The notes below the pieces were generated by a model. That model was not told the DNA's origin, made no database searches, and saw only the letters and a program-made list of their open reading frames with translations. A stretch of 64,000 nt of DNA, from positions 1 to 64,000 of the forward strand of contig WAPN01000001.1 of assembly GCA_015520735.1 (NCBI GenBank), given 5' to 3'. Both the position numbers and the translations under genes were made by a program. Origin of the DNA: Desulfurococcales archaeon (GTDB taxonomy: Archaea; Thermoproteota; Thermoprotei_A; Sulfolobales; Desulfurococcaceae). Shown here in pieces: positions 3,962 to 4,834 of this stretch; the first letter of the stretch is position 1, and the number at the start of each line of letters is the position of its first letter.

Positions 3962-4039
3962 GGGCCCGTCGTCTAGCCTGGTTAGGACGCCGCCCTCACA
4001 CGGCGGAGGTCCGGGGTTCAAATCCCCGCGGGCCCACCA
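3962..4039 (+). tRNA. tRNA-Val (CAC)
   Basis: Acceptor GGGCCCG pairs with CGGGCCC. The anticodon arm is CCGCC-CTCACAC-GGCGG with anticodon CAC. The T arm is CGGGG-TTCAAAT-CCCCG, discriminator A, and CCA is encoded. There is no intron. Its 3' half, starting at the anticodon loop, is duplicated at 4794-4834, which marks this gene as an integration target. Confidence 0.96.
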
Positions 4040-4145
4040 TACATAACACGTAACTAGCTCTTTTCTTATAGTATCCCCAAGTATGGGATGATGTCAGCTA
4101 AATTGATTATGCTCTCTATTAATATTGGTACTTGGTGTTTGAGGA

Positions 4146-4331
4146 TTGTCTGAAATAGAAGGTATCGTTAAAGGTGGTGTGATTATCCCGCTTAAACCTC
4201 TAACAAAACTAGAGGGTAAGAGAGTTAGAATAAAGATATTAGAAGTTGAAGGTATTGACACAGAGAAGCTCTATTCATATCTTAGACTTCTAAGAGAGGG
4301 GGAGGATGCTGAAGAAATCTTCGAGATATGA
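4146..4331 (+). CDS. DUF104/AF2212-type antitoxin
   Basis: Small 61-aa protein (TTG start behind GAGG). It has the beta-rich, SpoVT/AbrB-like opening IEGIVKGGVIIPLKPL followed by KLEGKRVRIKILE and an acidic helical tail, the pattern of the DUF104 (AF2212-like) antitoxin family. Its last 26 nt overlap the downstream MazF-like gene, so the pair is translationally coupled as in most toxin-antitoxin operons. It is expected to bind and neutralise the partner nuclease and probably represses the operon. That function is inferred from family and gene order. It lies inside the tRNA-Val-bounded AT-rich insert. Confidence 0.75.
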   Translation: MSEIEGIVKGGVIIPLKPLTKLEGKRVRIKILEVEGIDTEKLYSYLRLLREGEDAEEIFEI

Positions 4332-4653
4332 ACAAGGAGATATCGTTATCTTAGAACTTCCATTTACAGATTTGCTTGGCTCTAAATTAAGACCTGTTCT
4401 AGTATTGAATGCTATAGACCTAGGTGACGATATAATAGTAGCAAAAATAACAAGCTCTCCTGGAAGACATAGAATACCGATAATGCAGACAGACTTAGTT
4501 ACCGGACGTTTAAAGAAGGAACCTAGTTACATAGATTGCTCAAGTATTTTCACTGTAGAAAAGAAATTAGTAATAAAGGTTGTTGATAGGCTCACTCCAA
4601 AGGCATTAGATAAGGCTAAAGAAGAACTAAAGAGAGCCCTCGGATTAAAATGA
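4306..4653 (+). CDS. MazF/PemK-family endoribonuclease toxin
   Basis: A 115-aa protein with the PemK/MazF signature: YEQGDIVILELPFTD near the N-terminus, the SKLRPVLVLNA strand-turn with the conserved arginine-proline, a long beta barrel (YIDCSSIFTVEK) and a C-terminal helix. Toxins of this family cut single-stranded mRNA at short motifs and halt translation. The start overlaps the antitoxin gene by 26 nt. An ATG at 4306 gives a slightly long N-terminus, and a later start is possible. The reading frame is intact, so the system may be functional. Its place inside a tRNA-bounded island suggests horizontal origin. Confidence 0.82.
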   Translation: MLKKSSRYEQGDIVILELPFTDLLGSKLRPVLVLNAIDLGDDIIVAKITSSPGRHRIPIMQTDLVTGRLKKEPSYIDCSSIFTVEKKLVIKVVDRLTPKALDKAKEELKRALGLK

Positions 4654-4793
4654 AGTCTTACTCCAAATACATCCTACCTATGCTCTATATATGTATACCA
4701 TACGATTCAAGATATTTTAATTGATATACCTTCTGATAATCGTTTTGGATCATATGCATTATCTACGATATGAATTTTGAATATAATTGTGAA

Positions 4794-4834
4794 CTCACGC
4801 GGCGGAGGTCCGGGGTTCAAATCCCCGCAGGCCG
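4794..4834 (+). repeat. Orphan copy of tRNA-Val 3' half (attR-like)
   Basis: This repeats the tRNA-Val sequence from the anticodon loop through the T arm (GGTTCAAATCCCCGC) into the 3' acceptor strand, with changes at about three positions. It lacks a 5' half and cannot fold into a tRNA. It is best read as the displaced attachment-site copy after integration. Confidence 0.8.

Follow-up and report, generated by a model that had tools for sequence, protein, structure and literature searches.

CIMEs and ICE accretion are known from att-flanked derivatives that lack an integrase and stack in tandem at the end of a tRNA gene. The integrative plasmids of the pNOB8 type in Sulfolobales carry an integrase with a YxxR motif and have their target site in a tRNA gene's 3' half, the gene for the integrase immediately adjoining the tRNA that is rebuilt (PMC3293823), and the overlap region of IntSSV1 is the anticodon loop (PMC8371274). 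Integrons and integrase-less attC clusters, archaeal integrons included, consist of small promiscuous cassettes arrayed at an anchored site; in integrons TA cassettes are common and the integrase is often not nearby (PMC9668308). The dif modules of Acinetobacter plasmids are, as described in two further sources (PMC12907356, PMC13141974), small, often TA-encoding and shuffled by a tyrosine recombinase in trans. The cassettes reported here are like CIMEs, integrons and dif modules in these respects, and the pNOB8 traits return in the larger helper elements described below. No description of TA cassettes arrayed at tRNA genes was found in a search of open papers.

Unlike pNOB8-type plasmids, the cassettes lack genes for an integrase, for replication and for transfer; they are shorter than 1.2 kb and are stacked in arrays. 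Unlike integrons, they use a tRNA gene as anchor, their cargo is almost only TA pairs and they have no attC: attC-like single-strand folding was not consistent across six cassette sites (z +0.44 to -2.54, no shared fold). Dif modules rely on dif-type sites and XerC/D, whereas the cassettes have tRNA halves and a conserved arm; CIMEs derive from ICEs and span kilobases, whereas the cassettes are one-operon units of about 0.8 kb that spread as families of their own. The nearest match to the cassette system is found among integrase-less, CIME-like satellites of integrative elements that target tRNA genes, as the cassette is bounded by att sites, lacks a recombinase and has its arm and half-sites in common with the helpers; in its behaviour it resembles an integron array or dif modules. 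We are inclined to regard the tRNA-anchored, TA-only cassette arrays of hyperthermophilic archaea as a separate system beside integrons and dif modules, with a one-sided site (arm and tRNA 3' half) and pNOB8-type integrases acting in trans, versions of which would differ in tRNA target (Val, Gly) while the arm stays constant.

The window, a 64,000-nt stretch of contig WAPN01000001.1 from a Desulfurococcales archaeon, was originally predicted to hold a TA pair between a tRNA-Val gene and a copy of its 3' half, which was borne out by ARAGORN, the repeat and the Pfam matches (Table 1). As had also been claimed, the repeat starts at the anticodon loop (tRNA position 34, where the loop begins), but it measures 40 nt (38/40 identical, the copies 799 bp apart) and not the 41 nt given before. 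Chance could hardly produce a 95% match over 40 nt that begins at the loop and is found again at dozens of loci. The two ORFs overlap by 26 bp, and such adjacent genes for a small antitoxin and a PemK/MazF toxin place the pair among the type II TA modules (AF2212-PemK). The insert was expected to measure 0.8 kb and to contain only this operon; accordingly, neither an integrase gene nor any further convincing gene was found in it. Beyond the original prediction are the conserved arm, the arrays and the membership of the window locus in a widespread system.

Table 1. Features of the tRNA-Val locus in the window (positions in the window).
Feature	Position	Strand	Basis
Intact tRNA-Val(CAC), putative insertion target	3962..4039	+	ARAGORN; 3' part from 3995 would be the recombined attL
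7-nt anticodon loop CTCACAC, predicted overlap/crossover	3995..4001	+	Block-start position in tRNA/copy pairs; IntSSV1 overlap (PMC8371274)
Putative mobile cassette of 799 bp, made up of one repeat copy, the TA operon and the arm	3995..4793	+	Repeat spacing; homologous cassettes elsewhere
Antitoxin gene, AF2212-like, 61 aa	4146..4331	+	PF01954, E 7.9e-5, passes Pfam cut-off
Toxin gene, PemK/MazF family, 115 aa	4306..4653	+	PF02452, E 3.3e-12, passes Pfam cut-off
Conserved cassette-end arm, putative P-arm-like portion of attachment site	4721..4793	+	Models R1, R2
Imperfect palindrome ATGCATTATC..GATATGAAT inside arm	4754..4775	+	Alignments
tRNA-Val 3'-half copy (putative attR, old target half)	4794..4833	+	95% identity to 3995-4034

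Judging from the comparison of sequences, insertion of the cassettes is very probably site-specific. The block that tRNA and copy have in common starts with the first anticodon-loop base in 30 of the 40 pairs compared, and the similarity to the tRNA has a median of 0.95 in first copies versus 0.88 in second copies. The window genome (G000) belongs to the same genus as two genomes with common flanks, G001 and G005, of which G001 has exactly one cassette more; their alignment spans the tRNA and resumes from tRNA position 34 after 851 bp, as in a clean insertion. At the same flanks, four congeners hold AF2212/PemK (the window genome), DUF433/DUF5615, two DUF433/DUF5615 types and two RelE types, respectively. 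The comparison of sister strains, proposed originally as a check, thus revealed both different cassettes within the same flanks and a clean one-cassette insertion between G005 and G001. It had further been reasoned that the same repeat and TA pair in distant relatives, with no empty site, would speak against integration. This was not the case: in some relatives the tRNA has no downstream copy (L032, L033, L034, L036, L037).

Each tRNA 3'-half copy is preceded by a conserved arm of about 72 bp with the consensus TTGATATCC..TTTTGGATTACATGCATATC..TGATATGAAT..TGCATAT..TTGTGTT, followed by CTCACAC. The half-sites of the palindrome in the window are those of this consensus (ATGCATATC.. / ..GATATGAAT). 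Two sequence models were used: R1, containing the arm and part of the tRNA, matches the window genome at 4721-4808 (E 1.5e-17) and nowhere else in it, and R2, from which the tRNA part was omitted, matches at 4722-4791 (E 9.2e-13). An R1 match, and likewise a tRNA-Val followed by one to five serial cassettes of about 0.7-1.1 kb each, was found in 49 of the order's 214 genomes, representing 30 of 78 genera, the matches extending over at least eight families. R2 recovers the R1 places and further arms at tRNA-Gly(CCC), where a parallel cassette set exists, including one genome from another order. Arms next to unrelated cargo are on average 68% identical, compared to 32% for random genomic 75-mers. 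Arm similarity within and between cargo families did not differ significantly (0.681 vs 0.675; 315 of 2000 shuffles), so inheritance of an arm is not strictly tied to that of its cargo. In G079 (L161 8663-8853) two cassette arms lie head to head, as if part of the array had been inverted.

The cassette counts derive from searches across genomes, many of them draft MAGs; arrays are present in single-contig genomes too (G040, G068, G069). A search with the tRNA revealed additional 3'-half copies at relatives' loci, spaced 0.7-0.9 kb, and in the loci read nearly every cassette has one TA pair and each ends with a tRNA 3' half. None of the cassettes encodes an integrase or other recombinase. Seven TA families occur at tRNA-Val: AF2212/PemK, two of DUF433/DUF5615 (PIN-like), two of RelE/ParE and two of VapBC; pairs of DUF433 (COG2442) and PIN have already been reported as a TA type (PMC3834315). 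The orientation of the toxin relative to the arm is constant within each cassette family (76/76, related genomes not being independent). Of the 24 close PemK relatives in the order, 21 adjoin tRNA-Val, belong to a cassette bounded by an arm or lie where a contig ends in an arm-bearing genome. The window toxin is 93% identical to that of G011, 92% to G020, 83% to G154, 78% to G171, 76% to G039 and 78% to G029, whereas GlyA reaches 73, 82, 64, 64, 65 and 59% in the same genomes. The higher conservation of the toxin than of the housekeeping GlyA between families indicates horizontal spread. Precise insertion, a conserved site, arrays, exchange of cassettes among relatives and horizontal spread are what the comparison of genomes shows.

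The original prediction left two readings of the insert, an element that has shrunk to its addiction module or a minimal TA cargo mobilised in trans by an integrase. The former is not favoured for the window copy: many genera and families have the same small cassettes as intact units, each cassette family with its own length and a fixed orientation, which suggests that the cassette itself spreads. The latter gains support from the intact small families found in many genera, and its mover may be sought among rare elements of 7-17 kb at the same tRNAs (Val, Gly), which carry a pNOB8-type tyrosine integrase. Three related half-sites lie beside the tRNA, and in two of these helper elements (L167, L365) a cassette-type arm is found at the distal end. 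In L167 (G091) the tRNA-Val is followed by half-sites [AT]T[GT]CATATC at +47, +66 and +88, a tyrosine-type integrase of 467 aa with an N-terminal HTH-like region, and further cargo (AAA ATPase, GmrSD-type genes), the arm being located 6.7 kb away at the contig end. L366 (G100) and L367 (G107) start in the same way, the integrase frame of L367 having one stop. L365 (G134) is a complete version of 17.1 kb at tRNA-Gly(CCC), with half-sites at +51/71/93, its own diverged integrase (46% identical) and, at the far end, the arm joined to a tRNA-Gly half. The half-site triplet was not obtained in any of 20000 shuffles for each of the four helper elements.

The helper integrase is 34.8% identical to that of pNOB8 and retains the catalytic R, YxxR and Y; in L167, L366 and L365 an intact gene with R...YxxR...Y lies directly at the tRNA, as in pNOB8-type elements. 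The window cassette has no such integrase of its own, as none is present in the insert and no relative was found in its genome, where it had been proposed to search for a matching one. Also in most other cassette-bearing genomes a close relative of the helper integrase was not found, which suggests that mobility there is occasional or past, and most arrays may be stranded. The tRNA-side half-sites of the helpers are not kept in the cassettes examined (window, L021), the distal arm is; cassettes are thus only putative substrates of the helper. In G033 (L030 2199-18622; L084 1334-1622), the full tRNA is separated by 16 kb from a duplicated tRNA-Val 5' half (1-46), within which an integrase ORF begins; this looks like an integrase split at the 5' part of the tRNA. 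An HTH fragment resembling the N-terminus of the helper integrase is located just upstream of the tRNA in G033, G008 (L031 10091-10279) and G019 (L295 4459-4653).

We consider it likely that these are non-autonomous TA cassettes inserted in trans by a pNOB8-type integrase. The 799-bp insert would be such an integrative cassette, consisting of one type II TA operon and a one-sided attachment site, the latter formed by the arm of about 72 bp fused to the tRNA 3' half. A cassette circle would recombine with the anticodon loop of tRNA-Val so that the incoming 3' half rebuilds the tRNA, with the old half ending up behind the cassette arm. As the rebuilt tRNA is a target again, later cassettes would enter beside it and displace older ones outward, resulting in arrays. 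The integrase (R...YxxR...Y) of the 7-17 kb elements with the same tRNA and half-sites would act in trans, and the TA module probably holds the cassette in place by addiction, possibly with a function in defence or stress. We infer the circular intermediate, the identity of the integrase and its action in trans, the order of insertion and the function of the TA pair.

The tyrosine recombinases detected in the sampled genomes are XerA, SSV-type or pNOB8-type, and of these the pNOB8-type is probably the mover of the cassettes. It is unlikely that host XerA moves them in the way XerC/D act on dif modules in Acinetobacter, even if XerA is the only tyrosine recombinase detected in several array genomes (G068, G040, G071) and PaXerA weakly binds unrelated att stem-loops (review PMC8371274). 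XerA occurs in nearly all genomes of the order and the arms in 49 of 214, and in the helper elements the same half-sites adjoin a dedicated integrase. In the window genome XerA was not detected, as no PF00589 match was found at an estimated completeness of 99.8%.

Slightly less likely still are the SSV-type integrases (PF16795), which target tRNA-Val as well and have left degenerate relatives of the G001 tRNA-Val(GAC) integrase at distal array ends in G029, G039, G057 and G061. In intact members of the G001-type family attP bears another motif (GTAGTTAACT), these integrases act on many tRNAs, and no cassette arm was found alongside the SSV-type integrases tested. The SSV-type helper candidates of G005, G011, G020, G004 and G049 were rejected: they form one clade, two visibly begin inside the 3' half of another tRNA, and no arm is nearby. 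The SSV-type family with GTAGTTAACT near its attachment site targets Val, Gly, Arg and other tRNAs (L118 247-4415; L193-L197; L113). In the window genome itself this type is represented by no more than a PF16795 fragment where a contig ends (G000:C26:89500-89907).

Archaea are able to recombine short homologies. With repeats of 40-49 nt, tRNA copies could in principle have given rise to the arrays by duplicating or recombining through homology, with no site-specific recombination involved, but this is very unlikely as the boundary is fixed at the loop start, the arm is conserved outside the homology, and the lengths and orientations of the cassettes are fixed. That every locus is an independently decayed larger element with only the TA module kept is the least credible explanation, despite remnants of helper and SSV-type integrases near some arrays, because seven cassette families with family-typical lengths occur in at least eight archaeal families and the G005/G001 pair differs by a clean single-cassette insertion. 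A carrier virus, phage or plasmid for the cassettes was searched for and none was found, the 27 viral matches to a short arm pattern being at chance level under the full arm model.

If the cassettes are moved in trans by pNOB8-type integrases, TA modules might travel alone as selfish units, in enzyme-free cassettes of less than a kilobase that use a tRNA as landing platform and the integrase of another element. This would be an archaeal counterpart of integrons in hyperthermophiles, in which one could test whether TA arrays on chromosomes are selfish or useful.

The arm could also serve as a marker for locating TA and defence cargo of new types. At tRNA-Gly, a cassette with two bounding arms carries a DUF5678 protein and a retropepsin-like aspartyl protease (L331 464-1125 (G016:C125); L082 10665-11072; L332 2373-2663), and this pair is, by its position, a candidate new TA or defence pair. 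Cassette-type arms enclose whole or partial GmrSD-type restriction genes in G091 and G011 (L167 151-1771; L071 527-1267; L072 455-1267), and defence cargo may therefore be present in some of the larger cassettes.
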